Positions 11,201-61,300 of a stretch of DNA of 64,000 nucleotides are shown one piece after another (position 1 is the first letter of the stretch; each line of letters opens with the position of its first letter). The notes under the pieces are model-generated. The model ran no database searches. It was not told where the DNA came from and was given only the letters and a program-made list of their open reading frames with translations. The stretch covers positions 115,543,121 to 115,607,120 of the forward strand of contig NC_091125.1 in assembly GCF_040183065.1 (NCBI RefSeq), written 5' to 3'. Both the position numbers and the translations under genes were made by a program. This stretch comes from Periplaneta americana (lineage: Eukaryota > Arthropoda > Insecta > Blattodea > Blattidae).

Positions 11201-14200
11201 CTACGTATTACTCTGTGAAAAGATTTATTAAATCTACATACTTAGACTTCAACAAACAAAATTTGATAACACAATCCCATGGGAAAAAATGGAACTCTCT
11301 GCATCATAATCCACAGTTAATTCCTGATTTACCACGAAAATCGTCTGTAGCTGCATTTAGATTGGCAACAGGCCATGATTGTTTGGCCAAACACCTGCAT
11401 AGAATTGGAATATATGAGTCCCCTAACTGTCCATTATGCAACTCAAACCAAGAAATGGATTCGGAACACCTCAAAATCTGTGCTTCAGTGGCTGGTCATG
11501 ATAATATCTTTGAAAAATATTGGAGTGCAAGAGGTCAAATGACTTTATTGTCAAACGCCTGGCATTAGAAAACAACAACAACAACATTTCACAGCTCTGG
11601 AAAAATTATTTATAGAATGCGCCTTGTATATTGCAATGTGAGGGGATCCATTGTATACTAATGGTATTTTTTAAATTGATGAAATAAAATATAAGTTTTC
11701 TAGATTACTTGATTTTGACATTTTTGAAGCTGATGAATGACCCAGCTATTGCTTGTATGGTGACTTGTGAATCTGGCAGAATTAAAACTTTCCGAAAATT
11801 ACTTATTCTGTTTAATAGATTCTGTAGAGCTATGTAGATAGCGTTATTTCTTCATCAGAATTTGTTGAATCTGAACCAACATTATGGTAAACTGAAAAAA
11901 GGGGGGGGGGGCATGTAATTCTAAAAGTAATTTGAAGTATTGGGTTGTATTGAATTTCCGGGCTTGTGCTGCATTGTCTTAGTTGCTAGAGCTAACGTTT
12001 CGATCATCCTACTGTAATCGTCCTCAGAGCTATGGATGATCACAGTATGATGATTGAAATGTTAGCTCTAGCAACTGAGACAATGCGGCACAAGCCCAGA
12101 AACTCAGTACAACCCATGAACAGCAGCTGCAGAAGCCTTGTCAACAACTTGAAGTATTGTTTGATTTATAGTTAGACCTATGAAAAATAACAATGATTTT
12201 GCCAGGATAGTATAATATATTTGAAGTAAATCCCGAAAAGACTAAGTATATGATTATGTCTCGTGACCAGAATATAGTACGAAAGGGAACTATAAAAATT
12301 GGAGATTTATCCTTTGAAGAGGTGGAAAAATTCAAATACCTTGGAGCAACAGTAACAAACATAAATGACACTCGGGAGGAAATTAAACGCAGAATAAATA
12401 TGGGAAATGCCTGTTATTATTCGGTTGAGAAGCTTTTGTCATCTTGTTTTCTGTCAAAAAATCTGAAAGTTAGAATTTAAAAAACAGTTATATTACCGGT
12501 TGTTCTGTATGGTTGTGAAACTTGGACTCTCACTTTGAGAGAGGAAAAGAGATTAAGGGTGTTTGAGATTAAGGTTCTTAGGAAAATATTTGGGCCTAAG
12601 AGGGATGAAGTTACAGGAGAATGGAGAAAGTTCCACAACGGAGAGCTGCACGCATTGTATATTTCACCTGACATAATTAGGACCATAAAATCCAGACGTT
12701 TGAGATGGACTGGACATGTAGCACGTATGGGCGAATCCAGAAATGCATATAGAGTGTTAGTTGGGAGGCCGGAGGGCAAAAGACCTTTGGGGAGGCTGAG
12801 ACGTAGATGGGAAGATAATATTAAATTGGATTTGAGAGAGGTAGGATATGATGGTAGAGACTGGATTAATCTTGCTCAGGATAGGGACCAATGGCGGGCT
12901 TATGTGAGGGCAGCAATGAACCTCCAGGTTCCTTAAAAGCCAGTAAGTAAGTATAATATATTTAGTGCAATACATGTACAAGAATTAAATAATGAGTGTA
13001 GTTTCAAAACTGGAAAATTCCCTGTCCCCATTTTTTTCCAGAAGAGAGTAAAAGAAATTGTACGAAATGGTATGATATTCAAACTAATTTCAGTTTTCAG
13101 ATTCCTTATATTCTCATTTTTGTGTAAATATAGAGCATAAATGTACAAAGAGCAGAACATGTTTTGTGTGTCATCTAACGGTTACTATGCTTGCCAAGGG
13201 TCAAAGATTTTTAAGGGCATTAAAAATCCAAAGTATCAGTGGTGGTCCATCAGAGAAAGGAAAGGAAACACTGCTGGGGTAATTAAAATTGGCTGGGTAA
13301 CTAAAATTAAAATAATAAAAGTGTACATATGAGCCTACTCATTTTCTACTCCAGATGGTTTATCTAATCAGAATGTACTTTTAAAAATTCCCCGTGGGTG
13401 ACCGTCTAAAGTTCATATTATAATATGTATATATTTTACAGTAAATTACATTTCCTACAAATTAAACTAAAATCCAGCATACTATACAAACCATCTTGTT
13501 TGCATTTAGTAATTGCTAAGTCTTAAGTGCATTTTTCAGCCTTTTTGATCTGGCTATATTAAAAAAAAGTTTCATATCATAAATGTCCCATTTTGCAACT
13601 GAAAATTCTCTTTTACGTAATATCCTATTATTAATTGCCTTTGCATAAAAGGAAAAAAAAAATTAAAATTATTATATTTTTCAGGTGTTACAATATATTT
13701 TTGGAAAAGTTTGTTTCTTCAAAGTGGCTTATCATATAATCCTGAAAAAGAGAAAAATAGACATATTGGAATTGATCACCATGCACGAGCCACAGAAGGT
13801 TTACGATTGTGTCTATGCCATGGATTCCACTTTCTCCAATTGTCACGAAAGTGTGATCTACAAATAGCGTTTTAAGTAATAAATCATATCTCCTACATAC
13901 AATCTCCCAAGAGCTGTGACAATCTTATGTCATTTAAAGATACCGGTATGCCAAAAGTATAATCTGGAAAAATGTTTAATTTTTAACTATGTTTATGTAC
14001 GAACATTAACCAATTTAACCCAAACTATGTAATTTAATTTTTGAGTTATACTTACCCTGCTTGATCTTAATTCTGTACAAATTCTTTCAGGTGAATAAAA
14101 ATTATTTAGCTTAGTTACTTTGACTGTGACATTTTTTTATTTCACAGGAAACGTTACGTATACACAATAAACTGCAAGGATGGACCAGGACTAAATACTC

Positions 14201-26129: not shown

Positions 26130-27824
26130 TATTTATACAAAACAATAGTTTCGAAGTCTTCGCGGATATTTTTCTTGAAGGTTAAGTAGCTGCCAATGCT
26201 TTCTGTCCTTCCCGTGTATGCGCAATAAAAAGTAAATTAAAATATCTTCTAAATTTGTTTACTTACCATGTTGTTATTAAGGCGAAGTACGCTGTTAATA
26301 TACAAAAAAACTTGGCTTCAAATAATGATCGTGTGAGAATTAGTTTAATCGCTAAGTATTCCCGAAATCCCTATTTCTTTGGTTAAGAATAATTGAGAGA
26401 TCATTGTTTTGAATTTCCCACCTTTTCCGATTGTCAGTCTAAACCTAAACCTTCAACTGTTTAATCTTTCTGCTCAAACGCAGTGGTGTGTGACGTCTGG
26501 CCCGAATGTTAATGTAAAAACGTAGTTTTAGGGTGGTACGGAAGCTTGAAAATTGATCGATTATCCATATTAAAGAATAATTACTGACTGAAAAATGAAG
26601 GTACACAATTATTACTGTCAATATACATTCTCTATAACTAGATGCCGAAAGAAATTGTGTGTTACTTTAATTGTTTACAACTGTGACAGTTTTGCTTGAC
26701 CTCCTTGTAGCAGGTGGTAGTTTTTGAGAATTATGTATCGTATTGAAATGTAAAGTTGTATGTAATTAATAAGACATAAACGATGTGTAGATGGTGTTTT
26801 GCTTAAATTATTGAACATTTGTTTGTTGTATGTAATATTTTGAACAGCTAGATTGACATCTCGCTCATATTTTGTTGCATTTCGATTTTACACGATACTT
26901 ATTTGAGAATCGTGCGAAGAATATTGAAATCATATTGTGAAAAATATAAGCAACGTACTAACTTTGAGATCTAATGCAAATGTTTAAGCTTGTTACATGA
27001 AATGTACTATTACATAAGCTAATTATGTAAGCACTTGTCTGACTACAGTCAATGAAACATGACATCGATGGTGGTATTTTTTCTTCTAATGATTGATCGA
27101 CAGTACTTGAAAGTGTTCAAAAATTGTTATGACCGGCATTAGCTGGAACCTCTATTAGTGTGGAAGTCTCGGCAAATGTTCATGTAATTTTATGCTGTGA
27201 AAAATGAACTATGTTTATCTTTTCATAATTTAAAATGTTTTATGGCATTAGAAGGGTATTTTTTAGTGACAATGAGACCAAATTTTCAAATTTGGAGCAT
27301 CGTAGTCTGTTCCAATACGTAGTAATATTGTTACTATTGAGATTGAGTGATAAGTAAGTATGCATATACTACCTCTCATAGATCCTAAAGCATAATATTC
27401 AATATTTAGGCCCACAGAAGGAATTTTAAAGCCCTTGTTTACTAAATAGACCCAATCTAAAGTTCATTTTGGGGATTTCTTTACAATTACGTTACCACGT
27501 TAAGGTACAAATGAAGGGAATAACGCTCAAGGTCCATTTTAGAAAGTTTTGAGAAAAACGAATTTTAAAGTTTAAGCACATAATACTTAATTATCGTATG
27601 TGTGTATTTAATAGAAAAAGACATAGTGGAATGTGAAGAATGATTATTTCTTATTAATTAAACAATTACATTTTGTTCTGAAGTTGGATGGCAACAATGG
27701 AAAATGCAATATAAACGAACAATGTGTAAACTGCCAAAATAACGAGCAAGGTCCAAATAGATTACATGGGATACAGCGTGCATTATAGCGAAACACCACT
27801 TTTAACTCAAACAGCCTAATTTGT
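26130..27824. other. Intergenic, no recognisable element
   Basis: AT-rich sequence without family motifs on either strand and without a convincing exon; only short chance frames. Confidence 0.4.
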
Positions 27825-28076
27825 AGGATGGGTATTTTCCGAGCTAGAGGGCCGTGGTCTGTCAGTGTTACAACCAAACGTTTCGTCCACTACTCCAGTG
27901 GACATCTTCAGTGGCGTGGTACACGTGTGCGGAGAGATCTGCTGTGTGTATCAGGAACTGGCATTGAGACTGGTAGCACGTCGATATTTAAGGTGTGGGA
28001 TGGTTGTGGCTTGTCGTCACTGCGGTCCGCCACGACTGACAGACCACGGCCCTCTAGCCTGGAAAATACCCATCCT
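27825..28076 (-). repeat. Inverted-repeat element with hammerhead-like core
   Basis: The arms 27825-27866 and 28035-28076 are inverted repeats of about 42 bp (ggatgggtattttcc at the left end). Next to the left arm, the minus strand reads CTGAAGA (27911-27905), a GTCCAC/GTGGAC hairpin, then GAAAC (27884-27880). This is the clearest hammerhead-like core of the window, with a 6-bp stem II. The interior 170 bp have no protein motif. Confidence 0.7.
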
Positions 28077-28396
28077 ATCAACGCCGGAGGTGAAAGCCTA
28101 CATTCTAAGATTAGCGTAATTTGTTTTTGACAGTCTGATGTGTAATTTCAAAATATAATTATTATTCTTTTCCTTTCATTGTTCTTGTACTGTGGGTCTG
28201 TAAAACTGACCATTATTTGAAAGTTGACGAATTTTGCAATTTTGAAATAGCTTATAACATCATCACATGAAGCTGTTGAGGATTTTCAACTCTTTCACAT
28301 TGTTTTTCTTCTGATTTCTTTTCAGTGGTCTGATATATAATTAAAATAATGTTAGAAAATGACTATTAAAACTAATTTAAATGCTTAATAGAATTT

Positions 28397-28784
28397 GAAA
28401 GGAAAATATTTGGGGCTAAGCGGGATGAAGTTACAGGAGAATGGAGAAAGTTACACAACGCAGAACTGCACACATTGTATTCTTCACCTGACATAATTAG
28501 GAACATTAAATCCAGACGTTTGAGATGGGCAGGGCATGTAGCACGTATGGGCGAATCCGGAAATGCATATAGAGTGTTAGTTGGGAGACCGGAGGGAAAA
28601 AGACCTTTAGGGAGGCCAAGGCGTAGATGGGAGGATAATATTAAAATGGATTTGAGGGAGGTGGGATATGATGATAGAGACTGGATTAATCTTGCACAGG
28701 ATAGGGACCGATGGCGGGCTTATGTGAGGGCGGCAATAAACCTTCGGGTTCCTTAAAAGCCATTTGTAAGTAAGTAAGTAAGTA
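28397..28784 (+). mobile_element. 5'-truncated RTE-like LINE with (TAAG)n tail
   Basis: An open frame reads [59 protein letters not shown] and [15 protein letters not shown]-stop, followed by aaaagccatttg and four or more taag units. It is close to the copy at 12223-12949. Confidence 0.9.
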
Positions 28785-29000
28785 AAATACGATAAATAAA
28801 ATTAAAGATAAAATATTTTTGACAAATAAAATAGAAACTCACTATATAGCTTTCGTTTCGTCCGCTGGATGACTATCAGGAACACCATTTTGGTGTCTTA
28901 TTTTCCATAGTAGATTGGAATGGACCTCTAGGCGAAAGTGCAGTAGCTATTCAGAAATTCTCCTACACTTCTTCCATCTTACAGTCAACTACGAAGAATG

Positions 29001-29123
29001 TAAATAATTGATTAAATGGCGATCTTACTCGTGTTAATTGTGTAAGCATGTGCATGTACAGCTGTAAGCCGCATATGCTTACACAATTAACACGAGTAAG
29101 ATCGCCATTTAATCAATTATTTA
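29001..29123. repeat. Perfect 49-bp palindrome with 25-nt loop
   Basis: 29001-29049 is the exact reverse complement of 29075-29123. Perfect arms of this length imply a recent inverted duplication or continuing gene conversion. It ends 37 nt before the ATG of the candidate gene at 29161 and overlaps the upstream part of its open frame. Confidence 0.9.
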
Positions 29124-29160
29124 TATTGAAGTGTTAAAAGTAGTGTACGAAAGATTCAAC

Positions 29161-29573
29161 ATGGATTACGAAGAATGGTTCAGATTTCTTCCTAGCATTA
29201 GTACCGGTAATCTTTTACTTCCGGTCATCAGACATCTCACATCTTATTTTATGGTTTATAAATCCCATATACTTATTGCGCTCGAGGTACCACTTGCTGG
29301 AAATGTCGACAGACAATAAAATTTCTCCTTTTATACACTAAGAAATGGCAAAATAGTATCACAATAAAATTTGTTATTCTTTCCCCACAGGATTCAGAGA
29401 ATGTATTGAATTCACGCACAGAGTTAAGCAGAATTTCAGAACAGAAATACCACAACGTTAAGCATACTTCATCAGACGCTTTGTTCGAAACTGTTTCCTC
29501 ATGTGTACAAAATCTACAAAATACAGATTTCCTAGTAGAAAGTGTAGACTATGGAGATAGCACGAAAAAGTGA
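29161..29573 (+). CDS. Candidate two-exon small gene, 102-residue unknown protein
   Basis: Exon 1 is 29161-29286, ending CTCGAG before gtacca. Exon 2 is 29391-29573, preceded by ttgttattctttccccacag. The 104-nt intron has a good donor and a very good acceptor, and the join is in phase 0. The ATG context is caacATGG, with an in-frame stop upstream at 29110. The product starts MDYEEWFRFLPSIS, has a moderately hydrophobic middle (LLLPVIRHLTSYFMVY), and a polar Ser/Asn/Gln-rich second exon (SRTELSRISEQKYHN, FETVSSCVQNLQN) ending DSTKK-stop. I recognise no family and see no repeat motif in it. No AATAAA follows nearby, so it could be part of a larger transcript or a chance pairing. Confidence 0.4.
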
Positions 29574-34785: not shown

Positions 34786-37221
34786 GTGTACTGGATAGAG
34801 ATGTAAAGCCATTAATGTGGATGTTAATATGACTTCACCCAGCAGGATTCAGCAGTTGTGGGAACTGTTTGTACAAGCAGAGCATTCATCTTATGAGGTA
34901 GGCACCTGCCGTTGTCTATTGCATGCAGTAGTCATGAGATAAAGTTTGATTATATATGTTGATTACACACTTTTAATACTTTGTATCACTTAGGAATAAG
35001 ATTGTAATGACAACTTTCATGTGTTAAAAAATGAAAAACTAAGTTGTAAATTACCTAGTTGACTAGTTTTGACTTCGTATGAGCCATCTTCAGAATTAGT
35101 GAGGTCCTTGCTTCTTACAGTTTCTTCAGTTCAAACACGATACAAAGAATATATTACAGCCATAACCAAATCACACAATACCACCACATATGCAGAACAC
35201 ATCACAAACACCAACTAAGTTATAGCAATATAGAAACAGACATGGAAATCCTACATATCCAACTGAAAAACCAGAAATTAAACACACTAGAACAATACGA
35301 AATAATACAAACACACAAAAACACACCCACAACACAGCCTCAATACAAAACTAAATTTGAGGGCACACACCCTATTTGACTCCACACTACCAAATAAAAA
35401 TGTATCCCACATCAAAACAATTGAAGAAACCGGAAGAAACAAGGATCTTGCTAGTTCTGAAGATGGCTGATACGAAGTCGAAACTAGTAAACTAAGTAAT
35501 TTACAACTTAGTTTTTCATTTTAACACATACAAGTTGTCATTATAACTATATTCCTAAGTAAAATTTGATTATTAACATTTGTTGGCCATTACGACCAAG
35601 TTGATTTATTTTTTTTAATTATATGTTTTTAGTTTCCAATAAATTTCAAATGCGACACCATAAATTATTTTATGAGTTGAATTGATGGTAAGTAGTATAT
35701 TTTGTACCGAAAATTGTTCTAATTCAGTGTTTATCCAAAATTACGTGCAAGTTATCTTTTTTCCTGCTTTTTGTCATTATAGGTAAATTCTGGATAACAT
35801 TTTTAAACATGTCATAATAATTTTATGCTATAATCTCTCCTTTTCGTCACCAGTATGTTTTAGTAAGCAGATATGGTGAATATTTGTATGAGTTTTACAG
35901 TCGTGTTTAACACAAACACAAGTCATTCTGTTTTATGTTACCATCTCGAATGAATGTTTTGTTGGGAAAAAGATGCCCAGACCATACTTTGTATTTGACG
36001 AGTAATTTGAAAATATCTGAAACTGTAATTAATCCTCACAACAGAGGAGCACGTTGAATTTAGGAGAGAGTGGATTTGTGTAGTAACAAATAATTTATTT
36101 ACAGAAACAAGGATGGTTGGACATTTTCTTAGCAGAGTTCCTGGTTCAAGTCAAGGAAGGAAAAAGTGTTGAAGAAATATTATCATTCTGGTATGTCATA
36201 GCTAACAATTTTTTTTTAATAATCTAGACGCAAATCAAATGCCCGTCATTAGTTAGAAAAAGAAGAATTTTAGGTCTAGCTTTTTCTTCATTATCACAAT
36301 TGCCATCATCCTCAATCTCAACCTCCTCCTCCTCCTCCTCCTCCTCCTCCTCCTCCTCCTCCTTCTCGTTCTCCTCCTCATCGTCGTCATCATCATCATC
36401 ATCGACATCATCCAAAAGAAAATGTCTGTTCTGACTGTATACTTTTATATTAGGTAATTCCGATGTTACTCAAGTCTACTTGGATCTAAGCTTGTGTCAG
36501 TAAACTCGTGATGATATCTGTTACGTAAATATACAGTGTTATTAAGTACATAATTTTTTTTATACTCTGGTCATATCACGAGTTAATCTTTTGGGTGAAA
36601 TCCGAAGGCCTATGTACTATTGTTGAGACTGGTTCTATTGTTGTGAACTAAGTAGATGGCGTCTGTTATGTATTACTGATTTGTTATGAATATGATTTTG
36701 GTGATGAATGAAACCGATTCAGGGATGTTGTGGCCCGAATTTCCTGGCATTTGACTTATGGTTGAGGGAAAACCCTGAAAAACCTTAACCAGGAAATTGA
36801 ACCCGGGCCCTCTGTGTAAGAGACCAGCATGCTGACCCCTACACCACAGAAGTGGTCTAAATTTCCCTATATTCTGCAACTAGCAGAGAATAATGTTAAC
36901 AACACTGTTGTAAATTATTATAATAATATATCTCAATTTAAATACTTCCATTTTCATTTGTTTTTGTGTGTAAGTTGTGTTATAAATGTGAAGCTGATTA
37001 TGGTTATGAAGTTATTTTCCAATTCCTCTACTTGCAGTGCACCTGGTGGTGTTGCAACATTAATCGGCTGTGAGTTACTATCAGATGTTCACAAAATCTG
37101 TTCCCTGCCTGGTGATGGAGAGGATTTATCTTTACTACGTAAACACTTCCTGCAGGGACGGGGTTGGCGCAGTTTGGCAACACTGCAATGTCTTGGAGTG
37201 CGGGTAATGAAGTGAAATATC

Positions 37222-38816: not shown

Positions 38817-41800
38817 TTTTTTATTGTTCACTTTAACACTCATATTAAAACCACAATCTAGTATATACAGTCACGAAGCTCAATACGTAGTAAATATGCA
38901 CCCATAGACAGTTGCTAACCACTAGGATCGCTAATATTGCCTCATTACAGGCAATGCGGAAAAGTCCGGCACAGTCAATTGTTCCTAGCACCCTCACAAC
39001 TCAGGCTTCGTGACCGTATATACTAAACTGTGTTAAAACTATAAAACTTTAAGCTGAAACGTTGAAAGTGTTAGAAATTAAAAAAAAAAAGTAATATACT
39101 TTATGACTATGGCTCGGATAAAGTAACTGCAACAGAATAGGCATTCTTGAACCATGCATTTTGTTTACAAACATGAACTGCTGGAAAGAACACTCCTCAC
39201 CCCCTAGCTAAACACTTTTAACGTTTTAACTTAAGAAAGTTTTATAGTTTTTATTATTTTTCATTAAACGTCCACTGCCCTCGACCTTGTTTAAACTCAC
39301 AAACTTCGGAGCATAGTAATCACTCAACCAGTAAAGACAACAGATGCGTGTTGCATATATATACAGTTGTTATTTCCTCAACAAATTAGAGCCATTTGGC
39401 CTCCTCTTCCTACTCCTCAAAGTATATCTGGATACAAGTTTTATCACTTATGAATTATTAAGTTGTTTAGATAAATTCTGAATTCAGAAGATGATGTATG
39501 TAACATCGAAACTAGTTAATCAGATAAAATAATATCATAATTTAAATATTAACACAGTGAAGTTGTTATTTAATTAATCTAAATAACTTAATAGTTCATC
39601 AGTGATTAATGATTATATAACTGTTAAAAAAGTGTATTCAAGAACGAAGAAACATGTTTTGTCTTTGTGTGTTGTCAGAATTTGGCTGGACCCAATGGAC
39701 TTCGACTATTTCACCTCAGTTGTGCGCAGTGAAGATGAGGCCCGGTTGGACCGACCTGACTACACTCCCAGTAGAAGACGGCCTCATGGAGGTAGGTACT
39801 GTGTTGCACAACTGAGGAAAAGATAATGGACATTATTCATTTGTTTATAGAATTAATTTATTAGAGTACAGTTGTGTAAGGTTTGACAGAAAGGAATTCT
39901 TCACCACCACTGCCACAAATACTTCATTAACTTCACCATGAATGTGATCATGATGATGCTCATCATCAGTTAGACTACAACCATCACAATAACACACCAC
40001 TACTACTTTTACTTCTATTACTACTATTGGTGCTGCTTCTGCTGCTGCAACCACCCATCTATAGTGAACTCAACTGCAATCACCACATTGTCGTCCTTAG
40101 TGGTCTTGCGATTACCATACTGGATGTTAGATCTGGAGTTCGTGGGTTCATATCCAGCTGAGTGTAACGAACTTGAAAAGACATTAAAATTTTTATCGAC
40201 TTCCTCTTGGAGGTAAGTAAAGCCTGGAGATTCTTGCAATAATTTATGGCACTTAAAAGAAATTTGTCCCTCGTAGAGGAGTCGAGGCAAGATTCGTCAG
40301 CCATTTCTCATCCATGTTTAATTTCGACGTTGAATAACCTCTGTAGTTGAAAACATTGTTAAATTAAATACTACTATTGCTGCTGCTGCTACTGCAGCCA
40401 CCATTGCTATGGTTGCTGCTCCTGCCACTGTCGCAACTACTATTTGTTAGAGGGAATAAAATACAATTAGAAAGATATGTTCACGTAAGACGAATGCCAG
40501 AGCAGAAATTACTAATGAACATTTTAGAATGGTTTTCACCCGGAAGAAAGAAGAGAGGTCAACCTATGATCATATAGTTACATGAGGTTAGAAGATCGAT
40601 GGGATGAAAAGGATTTGAAAGAAATGGACTGAAAGGAAGACAGGATGGAATGGAAAAGAAGAATTGAGAACATCACCCGAATAAGGGCGTATAGAGCAAA
40701 ATGTAGCTCCGATATAAACTAATTTCAATATTTGTCAGCTGTCAGGTTCATCACAGTTGTGTCGAAAAAGTTTTTCTTCAGTGTGTAAAGTATACTTTTT
40801 CGACACAACAATGATCAGCCTGACACCTGACAAACATTGAACTTAGTTTATACCAGAACTACATTTTGCTCTATACGCCCTTATTCGGGTGATGCCCTCA
40901 GTTGTTGTTTATTTCCAATCTTATATAGTGTTCCTTTATTAATTTGCATGTTGTTGGGATTTCTACACTAAAGACAGGCTTTGCTTTAATTTGGGTGGAT
41001 TTTTTTAGCTACTTATCAGCTTCATTGTCAAGCAGATCCACATACGATGGCATCCATTGGAAGACAATTTCCTTATTTCTTGATTTGATGTTTTTATACT
41101 GTTTTCTTATATCTTGTAGATTTTCTGATGTTTTGTTGTTATTGGATATGCTCTTTAATGCTGCTTTGGAGTCTGATAGAATTATGTTTTTCTTTATATG
41201 TGGCTTGTATAAAACATTAAATAGAGCAGTTTTTATTGCTGTTCTCCTTCGAAATTGTTTGTATATTTTCGCAAGGGTGTATATTGCGAAAATTCTGTGC
41301 TAAATATTCCAAAGCTTGCCTCGTTGTTTGTACATGAACCATCACTATAATCGTATACCAAGCACCAGTTGGATATCTTTCTTCTATAGTTGCTATACTT
41401 GTTGCCTTCAGCACTTCTGGTGGGTCACTTGATTTTGAGACTGGTTTCTAGTTGTATGTTAATGTCTTTAAATTCGAGGAGGTGTAATAAAATGTTTGTG
41501 TATTTTGTGTTTATTTGTGAAATTTCCCCAGTATCATATTCAGCCAGTTGAAAATAGAACCTTCTCTCTGATTTGTATGATACTTTACTAATTCCTGTAG
41601 TAACTCGCTAATATTTTGAAATGAAAGTATTGTAATGAAGTGAATGTGAATGTTTTTCACTTCTGTTTTGGGTTAGCTCTCACTGAATAATGCTGTTTAT
41701 TATCGGAGATGGGTTAAGGTTTTATTTATTTCATTCATCATCATCGTCCTTGCAGGTATTAGGCGTAGTGGCCTGTTACGGTCTCCATCCATCTTTTCAG

Positions 41801-46100: not shown

Positions 46101-49100
46101 CTGCCTTTTGGATATGCAGATGAGCTGTTCTACGCTCCATGATTGTATATGCAGCAGTTGTATGTGATCCCGGAGCTTGATTTCTCATCTAGATGAATAT
46201 GTTATGTGTTAGCCAACCAGAGTTCCCCTAAGTTTAACCAAGAGCTTCTCAAAATAAAAAATGTTCAGAAACGACTGATATATGCCTACAGCCTAGGTAT
46301 GTTGTTATTTATTCTTCAGATCTTACAGTTTTGGTTCAGTCTTCATTAAAATATTACGTTTCCTGTTGTGAAAATGATAAAAATATTGAAATGGACTTTT
46401 TCATTGTGTGCAGGTGATCGACCTGATTGGGCAGCTGGTGACTGCTTTGAAAAAAGTGCGTGGCGAAATCGTTCACTCCCATGATTGCCGCCGGGCTCGA
46501 CACAAACGATGTGTGAACCAAGCATCAGGTGCTCTGCACCATCACTACGATCTTCTTGGTGGACCATTTAGTCCCACATTAGTTGGTCCACGTCAGCCCA
46601 CCTGCTGTGTGGCCTCTCTCTTTATGGTTCTGGTTCGCATCCTGACAAGCTCCAGTCCCACCATCAACATCCGTCCACATGTGCTGCGCACATTGACCCT
46701 ATGTGGCACTTGCTGCTGCTTCCCTGCACGCAGTGTCATTGGTCCACTCATCGACCTATTCAAGAATGGCAGCAATGGCAAGGTGCGGGCACTGGGATTT
46801 GCTTTGTTGGAGCGTACCATCTACTCGGAGCTGGGAGCCATCTCCCAGCATGAGTCCACTGTGTCCTGTGTCTTCTGCAGTGGAAACTTCGCCCCAAAAT
46901 CTGTGTTGACTTCCGAATATTCTGCAGAAGAATCTTTATTCGAAAACGTGTGGAAGAAAACTGAACGGCGACTCTCTGAAACAGATATGGAGAAGACTGA
47001 TGAGGCAGAGACCCCAGCGAGGAGCTCTTGGGAATGCCTAGAGTTGTACCGCGATCTGGTCCAGTCCCCAGATACCAAGCTCAGCCATACCACAACCTCC
47101 CATCTCCTGAAAGTGGCACCTCGCTGCACCCCTGCCATAAAGCACCGCTTGCTTTTTAAGGTATTCTATCCCACATTCATCACAGCCAAGACCTGCTGGT
47201 TTAATCCCTCAAGTTCTAGTGAAGAGATGTCGAATGCTAAGTTCAACATTCTCTCATGCTTATCCGCATTCTCGTCGATACTATCAGGAAATGTGATGTT
47301 TGTAGAGGAGTTTGTGACACAGTATGAAGGGCTCAACCACATCTTGGAGCTGATATCCCTGCCAGCCTTCTCGAAACTATGTTGTTCTATCCTGGAGGTG
47401 ACTGCAATCGTTGAGATATGGAAGCTGGAGTATGAAAATGGCGATGTGGATGACGATGTGGGGAAGCTACCCTCACTGTGCATGCTGCAGGGGGCGGTGC
47501 AGTCAGCTACGACACGTGTTCTCTCTCTTCTTGGGGTTGCCATATCTGAAGATGATGAACTGGAGCAGACAGTATGTGACGAGGAAGATGAAGAGACGAC
47601 TGTGCATGATTCCGAGAGCCATATGCAGCTGCTGGCCACTGTTTGTGTGTTCTGGCGGACATGCGCCAACCTTGTCCTGTACAGCCCACAGTACAGGAAG
47701 CATCTAGCACAGAACCCCCTTGCTCGAGATGGACTGAAACTCCTGCAGGTGCTTCTTGATCGAGTGACATCAAAGCAGCCAGGTAATCTAAATGTAAAAT
47801 CCTGTGTATTTTTGGGCTACTTTATAGATCTCCTTAATACTGCGATCTTCAAAGGCATTTTCTGCCCCATTTCACTGTGTTTCCTACATAATCATAGGAT
47901 TCTGCAGTCAAAGACGTCCTGCAGATCTGTGTGTATGTGTTTTGTATGTACTAAACACAACAAAAATGAAAGTGGTAAATTATAGCCTTGGGAGGGTTCT
48001 GAAACAAGTTTTAGCTGCACTTTCAATACTTGTTTGAAGTGGAGAAAGGGCAGTCTAAGAGTCATACTAGTGGTGACTTCTTGGTCTCAGTACAGTTTTT
48101 TTTGTGTGCGTGCGTGCGTCTAGGGAGTCAATATCTGCTACTTCCCGAGTAAAGAATAAATTGGGACCACTGTGAATGCTGCAGCCTACATTCAAACGTG
48201 AATGTTGCATCGTGCCCTTTGTGACAATGTCATACTTCTTCATGACAGTGCTTGCCCCCCATGTTGCGGCTTCAGTTCGAGAGAAAATCAACACATTTGG
48301 TTGGGAGGTACTCCAGCATCCACCATACAGTTCAGACCTTGCACTGTCGGACTTTATCTGTTTGGTCCCATGAAGAAATTTCTGGCTGGCCATCGCTTTG
48401 CAACTGATGCTGAAGTGCAATCAACTGTCTGCAGATGGCTATACTCAGCCAAACAGACTTCTGTGAACAGGGTATACTAATACTGGTACCACGATGGGAG
48501 AAATGCGTTGAGGATATATGATATGATGTGATATGATGTGATGTGATGTGATGTGATGTGATGTGATGTGATGTGATATGATATATTATATGATATGATA
48601 TTATATATGATATGATATATGATATGATATGATATGATATGATATGATATGATATGATATGATATGATATGATATGATATATGATATGGTATGATTAAAA
48701 CGTTTCGATGTTACACAGGCATGCGGATGGCTGACAGTCACTCGGAGAGCCATCTGTGCATGAAGGTGATAGAATCAACTCTGATTGTCATCTTGACGGC
48801 ACCACCTGTTGTTGATGACTCAGGTGAGTACATTCCATCATTTATCATTTAATGTATATGATTCTGTTTACTCTTCTTCAGAAATGTTACAGCTATCTTT
48901 TTAATTTAATTTAACATTTTACTGTTCCATATCATACTATGTCATTTTACATAATTTGGTATTTGCTTGTGTATGTCTTTTAATAACTGATATTCTACCA
49001 AGAGCTTTGAACAGAGTATCGTGAATCTGATCTTAAACTTCAGCCTTTATCCATTTTTATTAATGAACAAAGGGATCTTACATGCACTTAATCTATTACA

Positions 49101-52100: not shown

Positions 52101-55100
52101 CACAATTTTGAGTGTTTACATCATAGTAAGAGAAAGGTGTTATTCATCTCTCCACAGGATAATTCAAGGTAAAGAGTCATGAGCTTCTATCCTCCCTTTG
52201 GTTTATATTATAAAAAGGGAAGATGTGACTTAAGCACCCCTGGGAAGAGGTGGGCTGAGGTCGGAACAGGTCAAATGATATAATCCATAAAGGAGAAAGA
52301 ATAAAAACAAAACCAGTTTCTCTTTACAACAGTGAATGTTGGAATTTGCTGCAAAAAGAAAGAAAGATACCGCATAAATATAGCTGAGATGATATTTTTG
52401 CATTCCCTAATTGCCAGATACAGATTACCATCTTCACTATTCTAGTACAATACAAACATTGTGACTAAGAGATCTAGGAAGACCTTGACATATTTGTGTG
52501 TACTATGTGGAGTAAAGTGAACCTTCAGAACTTATGACTCACATTACCTTGAAGATGATGACCAATTTTTTAATCATATCAACTGCCTATAAATATTCTT
52601 AATATTTATAGCTATGATAATTAGAAATTCTCTTTATTTTTAAGGAATGATTGCTTTATTTTCTTTTCATTTTGAATTATCCTTCAGTTACTCTTATTTT
52701 CTCGGGAGGAAGTGAGAAAGTGTTGTTACATCGTCGTATGTTTTAAGCCTCTTTTGATAGATGGACCTTAATTTTTTAGCTATTTAACACAGAACAGTAG
52801 GTCACAAACTTTTAAATTGTGAGTTGGTTATTATTTTAATTTTTATCTTGGTTACCGGTACAGTATTTGTCTAAGATATTTTGAAGGGGGAAATGTGAAA
52901 TTTAGTTATGGCATTTATTGAGAGATTGAAATGAAAATTAGCATAAAAATGGGTCATTAAATTATGCTATTCCTCATTATAGTATGTATTATGTAGTAAT
53001 TAAAATAACGAAAATATTAATGTACCAAATGACTTATTTCATCTTGATTCTTCATTGTTCTACATACACTTTTAACACTTATATATCACTGATTAACTTT
53101 TCAACTTTTTTACTGTGTTAATTTTTAGGAAATTATCTGGCTGACTAGTTTCGAAGTGTTGTATTCATTGTTTTGGAAACACTTCGAAACTAGTCAATCA
53201 GGTAATTTCCTAAAAATTTACATAGTAAAGAAATTGAAAAATTAATCAAAGGTTTGTCAAACTGACTGTAACGAATTCTTTCAGAGCACGGTGGTGTTGT
53301 GTTTAATATTCATGCCTTGTATTCAGATGCCTGGGGTTCGATCCCAAGGATCGACTATCTTGATTTGGGTTTTTCGTGATTTATCTAGTTTCCCCAGGCA
53401 AATATTGAGATAGTACTCAATTCTTAACTAAATCTGTAGGCCTTCATCATCACACTCTTCATATGTCATCAGTCATCTTCTGCAGCAGATTAAGCTACCT
53501 GTTCAGTAAGTAGCGCATTAAAATGGCTGAGACGCCCTCTGTCCTCTGTTGGAAGACAAAGAGAGGTAATTTTGTCAGTTATGCGGTGTGGAAACATTAG
53601 AAAAAATTATAGATCTCTTGGATATGGAACAACAAGTTTTGAGGGTGAAATCATTGCAATAAGTGAATGTCTCAGGAATCTTCTATGCCACATCAATAAA
53701 TTTAGGAATGCAGTTATATTGTCAGAGGAATGCAGTTATATTGTCAGACTCCAAAGCAGCTATTCTGTCAATCGTCTCTAAACACACACCTTCATCTCAA
53801 ACAGCAGAAATAACTAAAATGCTCTCTCAATTAATATCACTCAATAAAAGAATTGTATGCCAATGGATACCATCCCATTGTGGAATCCTGGGAAACGAGA
53901 ATGCGAATGCTTTAGCAAAGAAGTGCAGCACTGCTACTTACAGACCTGCTACTAAATCTACGTATTATTCTGTGAAGAGATTTATTAAATCTACATACTT
54001 AGACTTCAACAAACAAAATTTGATAACTCAATCCCAAGGGAAAAAATGGAACTCTCTGCATCAAAATCCACAGTTAATTCCCGATTTACCACGAAAATCG
54101 TCTGTAGCTCATTTAGATTGGCAACAGGCCATGATTGTTTGGCCAAACACCTGCATAGAATTGGAATGTATCAGTCCCCTAACTGCCCATTGTGCAATGG
54201 GATTCGGAACACCTCAAAATCTGTGCTGCAGTGGCTGGTCATGATAATATCTTTGAAAAATATTGGAGTGCAAGAGGTCAAATGACTTTATTGTCAAACG
54301 CCTGGCATTAGAAAATAACAACAACATTAGAAAAAAAAATTCATGTCCCTTTCCTTTCAGTCACAAAATTCCACTGTCGGAATTTCAATTTGTTCTAACT
54401 CGATAACTTCACACCCAAATAAACCAAATAATGTTGCCTTCCCCCCCCTCCCCTTCTTATTGTGCGTACTTGACTGTTCGTCATTTACCCTATGAAACCA
54501 GTTGAGTAGACCAATTTGTTGCCCAGAGTGCGCCATAGGAGGCAGGTTTATGCTATCTCCACGATGAGGTGAGATGGGATACCACAGAGGAATCGGAACT
54601 TCTAGAGAAAACCCTTGTGTTACCTGGACTACGAGCTTGTCCAACACAAGCCATAAATCTAACCCAAATAAAGTAATGACTAGTACTAAAAAGAAGTCTT
54701 TTAATATGCATTATTTCGGGTAAGAATTGGCATATTATACCAGTAGATACTTAATATAAACAGGTTTGGAATATCTCCGCCATCAGTCTGCCCCTTATGT
54801 GATCTTCAAGAGGAAATGGATCAAAATCATCTTCATCACTGCCTGGCCACTATCAACTTGGCGTCCTTGAGTGAAGAATACTGGAGAGCGAGAGAATTAA
54901 TTACTTCATTGTCAGAAATTCAGCATTAGCAAACAACAACAACAACTTAATATAAACAAAATATGGCCAGTAATATAGGAGACATTGCTGTACACAGAGA
55001 GCTGGCACCCCTAGTTGATTTTCTAAGTATGATATGCAAAAAATAAAATAAAATAATTTTTCATAATGAGAAAGTAAAAATTGTATTATCCTATTTTGTT

Positions 55101-58100
55101 GTAAGGCTCTGGATACGTATATACGAATGCAATTGATTGTATTTTAGTTTCTTCATTACACTGACTCGAGGAAAATCAGTAACAAATAAGAATTGAACAG
55201 ATAATGTGACAGTAGTCATTGTAATGACACAGATGTGCATGGGATTATACAGATGGCTCATCTGCTGTTATGACAGCTCAGGCAAATCCCACTGGCGTCA
55301 GTTGTATGTAACCTGTGATCGAAAGTGGCTAGTTTTATAGTTTTATATGGACCAAGAATATGTACAGAAGATATCACGGTAACTTTTTAGAAAATTAAGA
55401 GCAAAATAATGTGTTAGTTATCTGTGGCTAATATGGTCTACGCATTTTTAACTTCATTATAACTTATGAGATCCAAAAACTTACGTATTTTTTAACGTAT
55501 ATAAAATAACAGAAGTAAATCTATTCCACTTATTCGGTTTTTGGAAATAAAACAAACTAGTTTATAAGTCTGTTTATAAGCAATATAAAACATTTATATT
55601 TGAAGCAATGCTTAGTTACAGTGTTTAGATATATATTTATATTACTACTGAAGCTTTCCTGGCAACGTGATAACTCAAAATTTCCTCTGGCTTCCAGCCA
55701 AGTCATAAGTTAGTGATCCACCGACGTTTCGAGGATGTTCTTCTTCCTCATCTTCAGGGTTAAAAAAAATGAAGATGAGGAAGATGAACATCCTCGAAAC
55801 GTCGGTGGATCACCAACTTATGACATGGCTGGAAGCCCGAGAAAATTTTGAGTTATATTTATGTTATTTTGTATACGTTAGAAAATACGTAAATAACTTA
55901 TTTTAATTATATTGCAAAGAAGGAGGAGTCCACTAAGAAGGTGCCTATATTCTAAATGGTATTTTCTTAATTCTGAAGCACTATAGCAATTTTCCTCAAG
56001 AATTTGAAGTTCTTATCATCATTACTACTGCCATTGTGTTTTTCTAAGTGCATGTCTATTGAACTGGAAATTCGACTGACAATAAAACTAAAAGAAAAAG
56101 TCAGAAATAACATGAATCTTATGATCAGTCTATTTGTGAATTATGGAATTGATTGTGTGTGTCAGGTGTTCCTGTCAGCAACGAATCTGTGGTGGAATGT
56201 CTGCAGAGGGCTTTGTTAAGTGTCGATGTGGACCGCAGTGTCAACATGCGGCAGCTATGCGATGTGCTGCTGCGCTGTGCTGTCGCGCACAGTTGCCACG
56301 AGCAAATGTTGCCACCCAACAAGAAGCCCAAGGTGAGTGCTGAAAATTGTTCCACGTTGAATTTGAAGATCACACATAATATGCATGTCCATGTATGCAC
56401 ACTATATGTGTAGTTTGTGGTAAGAATTTTGGGATAACGAGGTTGTGAATTCACTTAGTTTCTTTTAAATTATGTGAATTTAATTTAATTTCCATAACTG
56501 AATTAAAAAGACTTGCACATGTGATAGAAACGCCACAAGGAAGACCACGATTGATATACACACAGGGTGTCCCATTTATCTTGTACACTTATTATAACTT
56601 TTTTGTTTGGATAGGTATTGGAATTTTTGTTTTTGAGAGTTACGTTAGAACGAGGGGCTAACATGAGTGTAGAGATTTGGTGCATGTAACTACATTATGG
56701 TACAAGATACACGTGACGTCATCAATTTTTCAAATAGCACTACATGCTTTAATCATATTACATTGATTACACACATTAAGACGAGTTCAAAAATGTATCA
56801 CAATGTCACTTTTCCAATCAATAACAACAACAAAATGCAAGATGAATGCCATCAGAATGTGCCGTTTGTTGTGGTGCCCCATTCATCTTGTGCATTAACT
56901 TACACAAAACGAAAGACAACTGACGTCCGTACACGTCGTGTGTTGTGTGTTTGCTGTCTTAACATGTAAACAAACCACGACGACTGTCGACGTCACAATC
57001 CACGTACAGTAGCCTGCACGTTCTCCGGACCTGTCGCCACTCGGCTTCTTTCTGTGGGGAACTGTAAAGGACAGTGTGTACCAGAGCATTCTGACAACAC
57101 CAGACGACATGCAGCAACGCATTCAACAGGCTTGTGTGTCCATTCAGCCAGCAACATGCCAGGCAGTCATACCGTCTTTCGGGGAACGCTTTCGAATGTG
57201 CTTTAATGTGAATGGTTACCATTTGGAACATCTTCTGTGACTCTCAAAGCGTAAAATTATCACATTGGAAGTACGTTTTTGTTTCGTTTTGTTGTTATTG
57301 ACTAGGAAGGTGACATTGTGATACATTTTTGAACTCGTCTTAATGTGTGCAATCAATGTAACATGATTAAAGTATGTAGTGCTATTTGAAAAATTGATGA
57401 CGTCACGTGTATCATGTACCATAATGTAGTTACATGCACCAAATCTCCATACTCCTGTTAGCTTCTCGTTCTAACATAATGCTCAAAAACAAAAATTCCA
57501 ATACCTATCCAAACAAAAAAGTTATAATAGGTGCACATGATAAATGGAACACCCTGTATATGTTTTATAGTAGATATAATGAAGAAAAGAATTTCTATAA
57601 AATAAGATTATGGAGAAGGCTAATGAGCAGAAGGAAAGGATTAAGATCAATTTTTAATTTTTTCCGTGTAAAGAGGAGATGCACCATACTATTTTTTAGC
57701 TTGCGAATTGGTGTTGCAGTTGCCTTCACTACTGGCTGGGGTTGGAGGAGGCGCAGCATGGGATGAATGCGTGTCAGAAGGGGAGGATGAGGACGAGGCA
57801 GAGGCTGGTGATGGCAGTGAGGGGGGCAGCGAGGCCTATGTGACAGCTGATGAAGGCTATGAGGCAGATGTAGAAGTACTGGACAGCTGTGGGGTCTCTG
57901 GAGCAGGCGGCGCCACCAGCTGTGTGGGTGGGGATATTGAAGATGAGTCGAGCAGTTCCATTGCCACCACAGCTGTTGCAACACCCATCCCTGCTGTAAT
58001 GAGGGTGCCCCACAGTATTGCACACCCTGCTCTTTGCTTGCTGGCAGTCGAGCTGCTCGTGCACCTCAACAAGAGGTCAGTCATAGAAGTAATGATTTCA

Positions 58101-58338: not shown

Positions 58339-61300
58339 GAAAATTATAAAAAAGTAGTATATATATGGCACTTGATATTGGGAAAAGGAAATAGTACCAG
58401 AACAATGGAAGGAATCCATAGAATACCCGCCCAGAACAAGGTTGTAACCAGCAAAACTGATATTCTTAAAAAATGGGGGGGAAAAAACACATTGTACTGT
58501 ACATACTTTTAATTTTTTAGAACTAGATTGACAATCAGACATGTCTTCTGATTTCAATATGAGTACAAGCATTACACATAGCGCATCATTAACAACCATT
58601 ATTCACTAAAAAGTCAACTTACGAGAAATAAGAGATATACCGTAAAGTGGGGTGACTTTGAACGCTGAGGTGACTTTGAACAGTAATTTAGCTCCTTTCT
58701 AAATTAAATTCTGTACCCAATTGCGAAAAAACTGTTTAAGTTGTCAATAAATTAGTTCAGTTTTTTCGAAATAGGGTACAGCATTTAATTTAGAAGGGCG
58801 CTAAATTGCTGTTCAAAGTCACCTCGGCGTTCAAAGTCACCCCACTTTACGGTAACCTTGTTCTGGGCGGCTATTGTACCTACGTTTAAGAAGGGGGGGA
58901 AAGACTAACTGGAGCAACTTTCGAGGAATATCTTTTTTATTGACATCATACAAAATTTTGTCTAATATTCTTTTGAAAAGATTAACTCGTTATGTAGAAA
59001 TTATTGGCAATCATCAATGCGATTTTAGGCTTAATAGATCGACTATTGATCAGATTTTTTGTATTCAATAGATATTGGAGAAAAAGTGTGAGTATAAGGA
59101 CACAGTACATCAGTTATTCGTAGATTTCAAAAAGGCCTATGACTCGGTTAGGAGAGAAGTTCTATATAATATTCTTATTGAATTTGGTATTCCCAAGAAA
59201 ATAGTGCGGTTAATTAAAATGTGTCTCAGTGAAACATATGGCAGAGTCCGTATAGGCCAGTTTGTGTCTGATGCTTTTCCAGTTCACTGTGAGCTAAAGC
59301 AAGGAGATGCACTATCACCTTTACTTTTTAACTTTACTCTAGAATATGCCCTTAGGAAAGTCCAGGAAAACAGGGAGGGTTTGAAATTGAATGGGTTACA
59401 TCAGTTTCTTGTTTATGTGGATGACGTGAATATGTAAGGAGAAAATCCACAAACGATTAGGGAAAACACAGGAATTTACTTGAAGCAAGTACGGAGATAG
59501 GTTTGGAAGTAAACCCTAAAAAAACAAAGTATATGATTATGTCTCGTGACTAGAACATTATACGAAATGGAAATATAAAAGTTGGAAATTTATCCTTTGA
59601 AGAGGTGGAAAAATTCAGATATCTTGGACCAAGAGTAACAAATATAAATTACACTCGAGAGAAAATTAAACGAAGAATAAATATGGAAAATGCCTGTTGT
59701 TATTCTATTGAGAACAAAATACCCCTCATTTCTCATGAAAAACAAAAAGTGAATAGACTACAGTGGACTTTATATTGTCAGCAAACAGCTGGATACATTA
59801 AGAAGATTGATCGATTGATTCTGTTGAGAAGCTTTTATCATCCAGTCTGCTCTCGAAAAAGCTGAAAGTTAAAATTTATAAAACAGTTATATTACCGGTT
59901 GTTCTGTATGTTTGTGAAACTTACTCTCACTTTGAGAATGGAACAGAGGTTAAGGGTTTTCGAGAATTAGATGCTTAGGAAAATATTTGAGGCTGAGAGG
60001 ATGAAGTAACAGGAGAATAGAGAAAGTTACACAATGCAGAACTGCACACTTTGCATTCTTCACTTAACATAATTAGGAACATTAAATCCAGACGTTTGAG
60101 ATGGACAGCAGGGCATGTAGCACGTATGGGTGAATCCAGAAATGCATATAGAGTGTTAGTTAGAAGACCTGAGGGAAAAAGACCTTTAGGGATCCCGAGA
60201 CGTAGATGGGAAGATAATATTAAAATGGATTTGAGGGAGCTGGGATATAATGATAGAGACTGAATTAATCTTGCTCAGAATAGGGACCGATGGTGGGCTT
60301 ATGTGAGGGTGGCAATGAACCTCTGGGTTCCTTAAAAGCCATTTGTAAGTAACACAGCATATGTTATTTTAGAGCATATGAGTTGGTTTTCATACTATGT
60401 GGGAATTTTCAGTCCATTGTAAAACTGATTCTGAAAAGCTCAAATTTTATTTCGGGTCATCTCGTCTAGGAAGATCAATTACCACATCTACAAAGTTCTA
60501 ACTAATCATGATATTCTGTTGAACAGACCAACATCGCACAGTACTGATATCTACACATTCATCTCCATAAACAGTCTTCATTCTCCCGTTGAATGTCAAT
60601 CAGGGCCACATTTTTTCCTGTTAGAAGCTCTATCACAGCACGCTGCTTCAGATGCACTGACATAATGCTATTACATGTCACCATGTTTCAGACTATAATT
60701 CAGAGCTCTCTACTGGCAGAGGTACGAAACTTTGCTTCAGTGAAGCAGGAAAGTTAACTGAACAGAGTATGTGGTAGCTAGTACTCCGAAATATGTTAAT
60801 AATAACACAAAAAATTAGGAACCATTACTTTTCAAAACACCCTCGTATGTGTACTCACTACAAAACTTCCGTCATTTCTTTCAACCTGCGTTACCAGTAC
60901 TTCAGGAATGTACTCTATAAATGGGCTGAGGTTTAACTCCCGATAAATTCTATGAAGTTTGGTGTGGGACATGGCTTTTCTGTGTACATTAAATAAATAA
61001 CCATCATTGGTGTATCTTCGGAGTCATCAATATTCAAAATGTGATAAGTAGTCTAAATTATATTTCCTCAATTTTATAGGTTATTCATCACATGCTGCTA
61101 ATACATGCTTCGTGTGATTTTAGAAATTATTCTTTATGAAATAAAAAAAATATTTGCACACACCTTTGTTTGTAGTTTCATATTTGTTTTCAGATACGAA
61201 CTATTCCAAACATGAAACTGTTGAAAGCAGTCAAGTGTTAGAAGCAAATAATGCTGCATGTTTAAATTATTTGCTTTGTAAATGCTTTCAGTGAGTTGTA

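Follow-up and report, generated by a model that had tools for sequence, protein, structure and literature searches.

The stretch of DNA analyzed here, a window of 64,000 nucleotides from the insect Periplaneta americana (contig NC_091125.1, positions 115,543,121 to 115,607,120 of the forward strand; positions below are those of the window), contains a 293-bp insertion bounded by a target-site duplication (TSD) of 7-8 bp and carrying on its minus strand a motif with the layout of a minimal hammerhead ribozyme (Table 1). We regard this insertion, with a probability of roughly 90%, as a dead-end product of a Penelope-like element, composed of two opposed ends of the pseudo-long terminal repeat (pLTR) type together with the hammerhead motif. 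A preliminary description, made from the letters alone, had noticed a hammerhead-like core at the edge of an inverted-repeat element, consisting of CTGAAGA, an extra T, a GTCCAC/GTGGAC hairpin and GAAAC, and all of these strings lie on the minus strand as it claimed.

The focal motif and the limits of the insertion

Read from 27915 to 27873, the minus strand gives GCCA, CUGAAGA, U, GUCCAC-UGGAGUA-GUGGAC, GAA, ACGU, U and UGGU, with CUGANGA (27911-27905) and GAAA (27884-27881) in the required order and stem II formed by GTCCAC (27903-27898) and GTGGAC (27890-27885) around a loop at 27897-27891. Three elements had been overlooked in the preliminary description, namely stem I (GCCA 27915-27912 and TGGT 27876-27873), a palindromic ACGT (27881-27878) and a GUU triplet; these additions make the motif, to judge from its sequence, a complete minimal hammerhead, beyond the core alone. 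Cleavage triplets of hammerheads follow the rule NUH, which the focal GUU fits, and in the 29 stem-II classes of related sites defined below position 17 holds G in two and one of U, C or A in the other 27. By hammerhead numbering we take the cut to fall on the minus strand between U17 (27877) and U1.1 (27876), within this triplet. Both stem I and stem II are present in the minimum free energy (MFE) fold of a 50-nt focal RNA.

The placement at the edge of an inverted-repeat element proved right in part: inverted arms of 43 nt are indeed present, but they are not the full ends of the element, beyond one of them there is a tail of 39 nt, and the insertion as a whole (27824-28116) exceeds the interval first marked out. 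Its two ends lie 82 and 121 nt from the ATG that overlaps the core, and thus differ by 39 nt.

Table 1. Features of the focal insertion and of the other insertions of the same kind in the window
Feature	Positions	Strand	Basis
Candidate minimal hammerhead ribozyme motif	27872..27916	-	scored by covariance model R1 at 51.6 bits (E 2e-14)
Stem I, 5' strand GCCA (CCA plus a G making a G-U pair)	27912..27915	-	fold; class comparison
Core CUGAAGA (C3-A9)	27905..27911	-	sequence match
Extra U at the A9/stem II junction ('A10' place), middle letter of ATG 27905-27903	27904	-	
Stem II GTCCAC/GTGGAC, loop TGGAGTA	27885..27903	-	sequence, MFE fold
Core GAAA (G12-A15.1)	27881..27884	-	sequence match; GAAAC spans 27884-27880
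Stem III stub ACGU, self-complementary	27878..27881	-	sequence; other families
Stem I, 3' strand UGGU	27873..27876	-	fold; class comparison
TSD copy 1, TAATTTG (8 bp, TAATTTGT, if the first element base is shared)	27817..27823		
TSD copy 2, TAATTTG	28117..28123		
Whole insertion, very probably a cut-down Penelope-like element with two opposed pLTR ends and no element open reading frame	27824..28116	-	TSD, tail, relative L033
pLTR-end segment of 207 nt with the hammerhead, common to relatives	27824..28030	-	most listed long matches 91-96% identical
Inverted arm 1	27824..27866	-	43 nt, 95% complementary to arm 2
Inverted arm 2	28035..28077	+	43 nt, 95% complementary to arm 1
One-sided 39-nt extension ('tail' of Penelope-like elements)	28078..28116	+	tail known from a portion of PMC3846280 and from PMC11167929
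Second insertion, same anatomy: hammerhead 12032-11989 (37.7 bits), TSD TTGAAGTATTG, 32-nt tail	11943..12148	-	
Third insertion, same anatomy: foldback 28997-29127, TSD TACGAAGAATG, 39-nt tail	29001..29166	+	
Fourth insertion: hammerhead 35452-35494 (19.2 bits), 34-nt tail, TSD TTTGATTAT	34954..35564	+	
Fifth insertion: hammerhead 55762-55718 (48.3 bits), TSD TATATTTAT, 29-nt tail	55641..55853	-	

Conservation of the hammerhead fold across families

In the canonical hammerhead consensus no residue stands between A9 and the 10.1-11.1 pair, and the focal motif departs from this consensus (of the Rfam 15 type) by the extra U at 27904. Searches with the Rfam hammerhead models recovered no match, either in the whole window at the gathering threshold or in the region 27700-28200 at E 10, a result that taken alone would have rejected a hammerhead. 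Weak Rfam matches of other kinds (sR16, MIR1144 and proV) were rejected, their scores being far below the respective cutoffs. As Rfam found nothing, the fold was tested against other copies, beginning with those in the window. A pattern of CTGANGA, 0-1 nt, a stem of at least 4 bp and GAAA has five loci there, as against a mean of 0.25 in 60 Markov-1 simulations. The locus at position 413, which is without the extra nucleotide and has no C after its GAAA, was set aside, and the remaining four (12027 and 27911 on the minus strand, 35457 on the plus strand, 55757 on the minus strand) all possess exactly one extra nucleotide and all lie inside inverted repeats. The longer string 'CTGAAGAT...CGAAACG' occurs twice in the window and in none of 100 shuffles.

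A pattern search of the genome, covering 3.23 Gb in 91 contigs, recovered 5,017 copies (2544 + 2473) of the strict motif CTGAAGATG-N8..30-CGAAACG, which demands the extra U, in comparison to 12 (6 + 6) for the reversed pattern. The form in which CTGAAGA is followed by A, C or G, which does not demand an extra residue, is represented by 1264 + 1252 copies, compared to 67 + 82 for its control. Places were taken among the matches listed, namely the first 100 per genome pattern, all on one contig. The loci that were fetched derive from the best matches to the focal element, from the first 30 pattern matches, on one contig, and from picks for diversity; they contain 88 sites of the form CTGANGA ... 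CGAAACGT, 48 of them distinct, in 29 stem-II classes, the comparison of which omitted sites close to the locus ends. All of the first three pairs of stem I are formed in 18 of these 29 classes, good or bad, while shuffling of the 3' sides in 2000 trials gave 5.2 on average and at most 12, never 18, and after a shift of register the pairing is seen in only 0 or 1 of the 29.

An alignment of 11 of the 29 classes (A1), selected post hoc and mostly for a visible stem II (the class of L100 was included despite a poor one), pairs in 92.9% of its cells, as against 55.1% when shuffled and 31-42% in slid versions, and its covariation score is 0.962 as against 0.226 when shuffled. Double changes are present in eight of the nine A1 pairs, a count that 87 of 500 shuffles reach too. 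Stems I and II are thus kept across families by double changes, and the compensatory changes in other genomic copies to which the preliminary description had looked are found both in the stem I comparison and in A1. In several families the stubs occupying the place of stem III were read by hand as self-complementary (ACGU, ACUAGU, ACGGGCCGU and ACAGCUGU). A covariance model (R1) built from the 11-class alignment, with the focal sequence and its family excluded and related families included, assigns 51.6 bits to the focal site and 48.3, 37.7 and 19.2 bits to those at 55762, 12032 and 35452. An exact-pattern scan of viral contigs for relatives yielded 24 loci preselected for both core strings, none of which has a stem II of more than 4 bp in the required place; for this reason they served as decoys, and their maximum under R1 is 22.7 bits. 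The hammerhead-type core proposed at the outset is therefore upheld by the compensatory changes across families and by the score of the focal site.

The extra U had initially been taken as the mark of a derived or weakened form. Across the 29 classes the residue recurs: 15 have U, 11 have C and three have A. In two sets of fetched loci no stem II was seen beginning right after CTGANGA, though the strict pattern that supplied part of the fetched loci demands the extra U. Within this sample of relatives, one additional nucleotide ahead of stem II is the norm. In the plus-strand hammerhead of the chrysanthemum chlorotic mottle viroid, the available part of PMC3705267 describes an extra A (A10) between A9 and G10.1, and reports that U at that place raises trans-cleavage 3-4 fold, with C and G being harmful. 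The viroid resembles the cockroach motifs in having one extra residue at the same place and differs in having A there, as opposed to U, C or A here. Its behavior speaks against a weakened form in the families with U and predicts weak activity in those with C.

In the focal family this extra residue is also the U of an ATG (27905-27903), whereas the families with C or A have no ATG there. A listing confined to the longest frame per motif string showed that, among the focal-family strings, the copy with the longest frame remains open up to where the segment stops, for at least 27 codons; families have in common a peptide of the form MSxxVxDETxG...RPRxxSPEN...GRESLHS. Several other strings, and likewise the 35-kb and 55-kb copies, have a frame from the ATG that closes early. 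If this AUG acts as a start codon, the ribozyme would straddle the start of the open reading frame (ORF) of the element in the AUG families. A tentative and on the whole doubtful extension of this idea is that the hammerhead core was built around the ORF start, such that the AUG stretch could serve either as catalytic core or as start site and a cut 29 nt into the ORF would remove the start. The ribozyme might then be a switch that divides the element RNA between mRNA and template for reverse transcription; in sister families with C or A the AUG, and perhaps much of the activity too, would have disappeared, and arrays of 56-nt units such as that in L104 (see below) would be a by-product releasing very small RNAs.

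Relatives of the insertion and the rival readings

A homology search with the 254-nt inverted repeat as query, in which 40 of 1107 first-look candidates were scored, gave 91 listed matches, and 20 regions were fetched; most of the long matches listed cover about positions 48-254 of the query at 91-96% identity. Opposed copies in these relatives range from 53 to 952 nt in length. The relative L033 is flanked by two copies of the focal segment that face opposite ways (952-nt arms, 97%) and enclose a reverse transcriptase (RT) ORF, with a match to RVT_1 at E 6.2e-6, under the Pfam cutoff, and a second ORF containing a GIY-YIG-like stretch that was recognized by eye. The latter shows 40% identity over 86 aa to the GIY-YIG domain of L103 (G000:C1:147708800-147712600), a member of another hammerhead family with a tandem arrangement, in which 221-nt direct repeats (98%), each with a hammerhead, bracket matches to RVT_1 (E 1e-16) and GIY-YIG (E 7.6e-4, 20.2 bits against a cutoff of 22.6). 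A search of the L033 ORFs against sequences of solved structures recovered nothing for the endonuclease part and weak RT matches; in the 35-kb copy the frames of the internal stretch contain stops. The ORFs of L033 and L103 are related, and by their sequence features both are Penelope-like elements. The focal segment is kin to such an RT-bearing element, and the focal insertion has opposed ends, one tail and a target duplication. Of the two homes that the preliminary description had offered, the Penelope-like element is hence supported, by L033, L103 and the anatomy, and the retrozyme is not.

Two further observations concern these relatives. The hammerhead of the 3' pLTR of L103 overlaps the last codons of the GIY-YIG ORF (frame end ...GSRDTEDDDK). 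The locus L104 (G000:C1:72050700-72052600) carries at 793-1017 four head-to-tail units of 56 nt, each a complete minimal hammerhead of 48-52 bits, and this array sits in an apparent Penelope-type insertion.

The anatomy of the focal insertion recurs in the window, where each of the five insertions is flanked by a TSD (8-11 bp) and has a single tail (29-39 nt); when this geometry was placed at random, a duplication of at least 8 arose in seven of 120 cases. Among 21 loci (the 20 fetched and the window), 14 were matched at both ends, and after L047, the right end of which is cut off by the locus edge, was left out, TSDs are present in 12 of the 13 two-ended copies, the focal one included (10-14 bp in relatives, 8 in the window), and a tail lies outside exactly one end, likewise in 12 of the 13, this tally having no null of its own. 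The restriction of the tail to one end (12/13 copies and 5/5 window insertions, the focal one being in both counts) is stricter than the 'optional' tail of the literature. The third insertion, about 900 bp from the focal site, is broken off within an apparent hammerhead, the stem III palindrome of its family being ACAGCTGT, and the fifth also holds a partial opposed hammerhead copy at 55770-55803 (30.6 bits). Four other inverted repeats (56562-57557, 40655-40910, 58638-58854 and 53090-53248) gave no hammerhead match with the R1 model to E 1.

Besides the lack of an Rfam match, several points weigh against our interpretation. The energy of the MFE fold barely beats that of shuffles (z -1.34; 21 of 200 equally good), and in that fold the extra U forms a U-G wobble with G12 of GAAA, a pair that would have to open for catalysis. 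Across the 29 matching stretches of the focal family the core is less divergent than the remainder (0.0128 vs 0.0310), but not significantly so (p ~0.19), and the T that stretches the focal stem II from 6 to 8 bp is C in 26 of 29 focal-family stretches; the 8-bp stem is thus owed to a T where most relatives have C, and the perfect stem II, earlier read as a sign of constraint on the focal copy, loses that meaning. Scores within the range of the decoys were obtained for the hammerhead at 35452 (19.2 bits) and for that of L103 (18.1 bits), which, given the decoy maximum, are not separable by score alone. L037 is devoid of both TSD and tail, and the endonuclease ORF of L033 has no Pfam match. Finally, no excess of changes at third positions is seen between families (codon-position counts 64/87/65), so that use of the AUG is unsupported.

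Common short strings combined with an unrelated hairpin would account for the failure of the Rfam models, and both core strings are indeed short, the 24 viral contigs carrying both of them apparently by chance. Yet the best viral locus falls far short of the focal site (22.7 as against 51.6 bits), with 0/24 having a stem II of more than 4 bp in place, and the motif outnumbers its reversed control in the genome by 5,017 to 12; the covariation across families refutes a chance resemblance, which we consider hardly credible. A miniature inverted-repeat DNA transposon (MITE) in which the motif is present by accident would be in keeping with 43-nt inverted arms at 95% and a TA at both arm ends. It is contradicted by the position of the 39-nt tail outside one arm and of the TSD (7-8 bp) beyond the tail, which show that the arms are not the element ends and refute this reading, and also by the relatives, in which the opposed copies vary between 53 and 952 nt and in L033 surround RT and endonuclease-like ORFs; a MITE is accordingly next to untenable.

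Two further readings were weighed. The five short hammerhead insertions without an element ORF in the window, and the four tandem 56-nt hammerhead units of L104, are what might be expected of a retrozyme, a circular-RNA element that is not autonomous, has hammerheads in tandem and makes use of Penelope proteins; the focal insertion, however, carries a single hammerhead, its repeats are opposed and not direct, and its segment comes from the terminus of an element that bears ORFs, making a retrozyme very unlikely. Alternatively, the string might be selected as coding sequence, or as a protein-binding or RT-start site, and not as a ribozyme. The segment does overlap an open frame from the ATG, and in the lizard element PAc (Poseidon of Anolis carolinensis) the template needs the first 172 nt of the ORF, mutants with an inactivated hammerhead are still able to insert in vitro, and RNA-seq showed no ends at the cut site (PMC11167929). 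Such a purpose would not explain why double changes maintain stem I and stem II from one family to the next, why third codon positions are without excess, or why several of the C or A families keep the fold despite having no ATG, and we regard it as rather improbable.

Beyond these insertions, one C-terminal reading frame is present in two copies in the window (12481-12936 and 28376-28756), which we presume to be the 3' end of a long interspersed nuclear element (LINE), and GTAAGTAAG repeats follow the copy at 28376-28756. A 531-aa open frame at 46390-47985 resembles host coding sequence and has no Pfam match at E 0.01.

Origin of the insertion and comparison with known systems

The lizard element suggests how such a structure might come about. 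There the protein cuts both DNA strands at AT-rich sites, and reverse transcription sets out from either of two points within the element RNA. For the focal copy we infer that each DNA strand primed synthesis at a different one of these start sites, which would yield opposed copies of one end, with and without the tail, and that early stopping of reverse transcription left no gene. As a minimal hammerhead without a real stem III, the motif would act in pairs, with two copies, from tandem pLTRs of one transcript or from two RNAs, pairing through the palindromic ACGU, and each hammerhead of the pair would cut after U17 (27877). The focal copy is probably not cutting RNA now, because it is alone in a short insertion with no tandem partner.

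These results imply that the current Rfam models can miss hammerheads matched thousands of times in a single animal genome; a covariation-tested description with one extra core residue could be added to these models. The concurrence of a ribozyme, a likely start codon and two reverse-transcription start sites in one short stretch makes the role of the Penelope hammerheads testable.

Minimal type I hammerheads of Penelope-like elements were reportedly described by Cervera and De la Pena in 2014 and by Lunse, Weinberg and Breaker in 2017. A literature search on hammerhead ribozymes and Penelope did not return Periplaneta among the matches listed. According to the available portions of PMC6155905 and PMC7761336, minimal hammerheads without helix III are present by the thousands in the Penelope pLTRs of many animal genomes and may cleave as dimers. 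Such hammerheads are already established, and the focal motif is a further member, sharing with them the pLTR location, the absence of helix III and the thousands of copies per genome; a possible difference from the published consensus is that the stem-bearing examples inspected here carry a single additional nucleotide where A9 adjoins stem II.

The closest parallels in anatomy are provided by two Penelope-like elements. In Adineta vaga, the consulted portion of PMC3846280 describes pLTRs that face opposite ways, one of which may bear a 31-bp tail, together with TSDs of 8-10 bp and a pLTR that covers the first ORF codons. The insertion studied here is alike in its opposed pLTRs, its one-sided tail, its TSD and the position of the pLTR over the ORF start; a point of difference is that the main text of that source nowhere uses the word 'hammerhead'. 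For PAc, PMC11167929 describes cutting and extension of both strands, with an internal onset of reverse transcription 111-118 bp within the ORF; the tail there corresponds to the interval that separates two reverse-transcription start sites. The internal start, to be compared with ends at 82 and 121 nt from the ATG here, and a tail derived from two start sites are the shared features. The host and the element family are different, and cleavage, which is predicted from sequence in the cockroach, was shown in the lizard element, where it occurs only with the protein.
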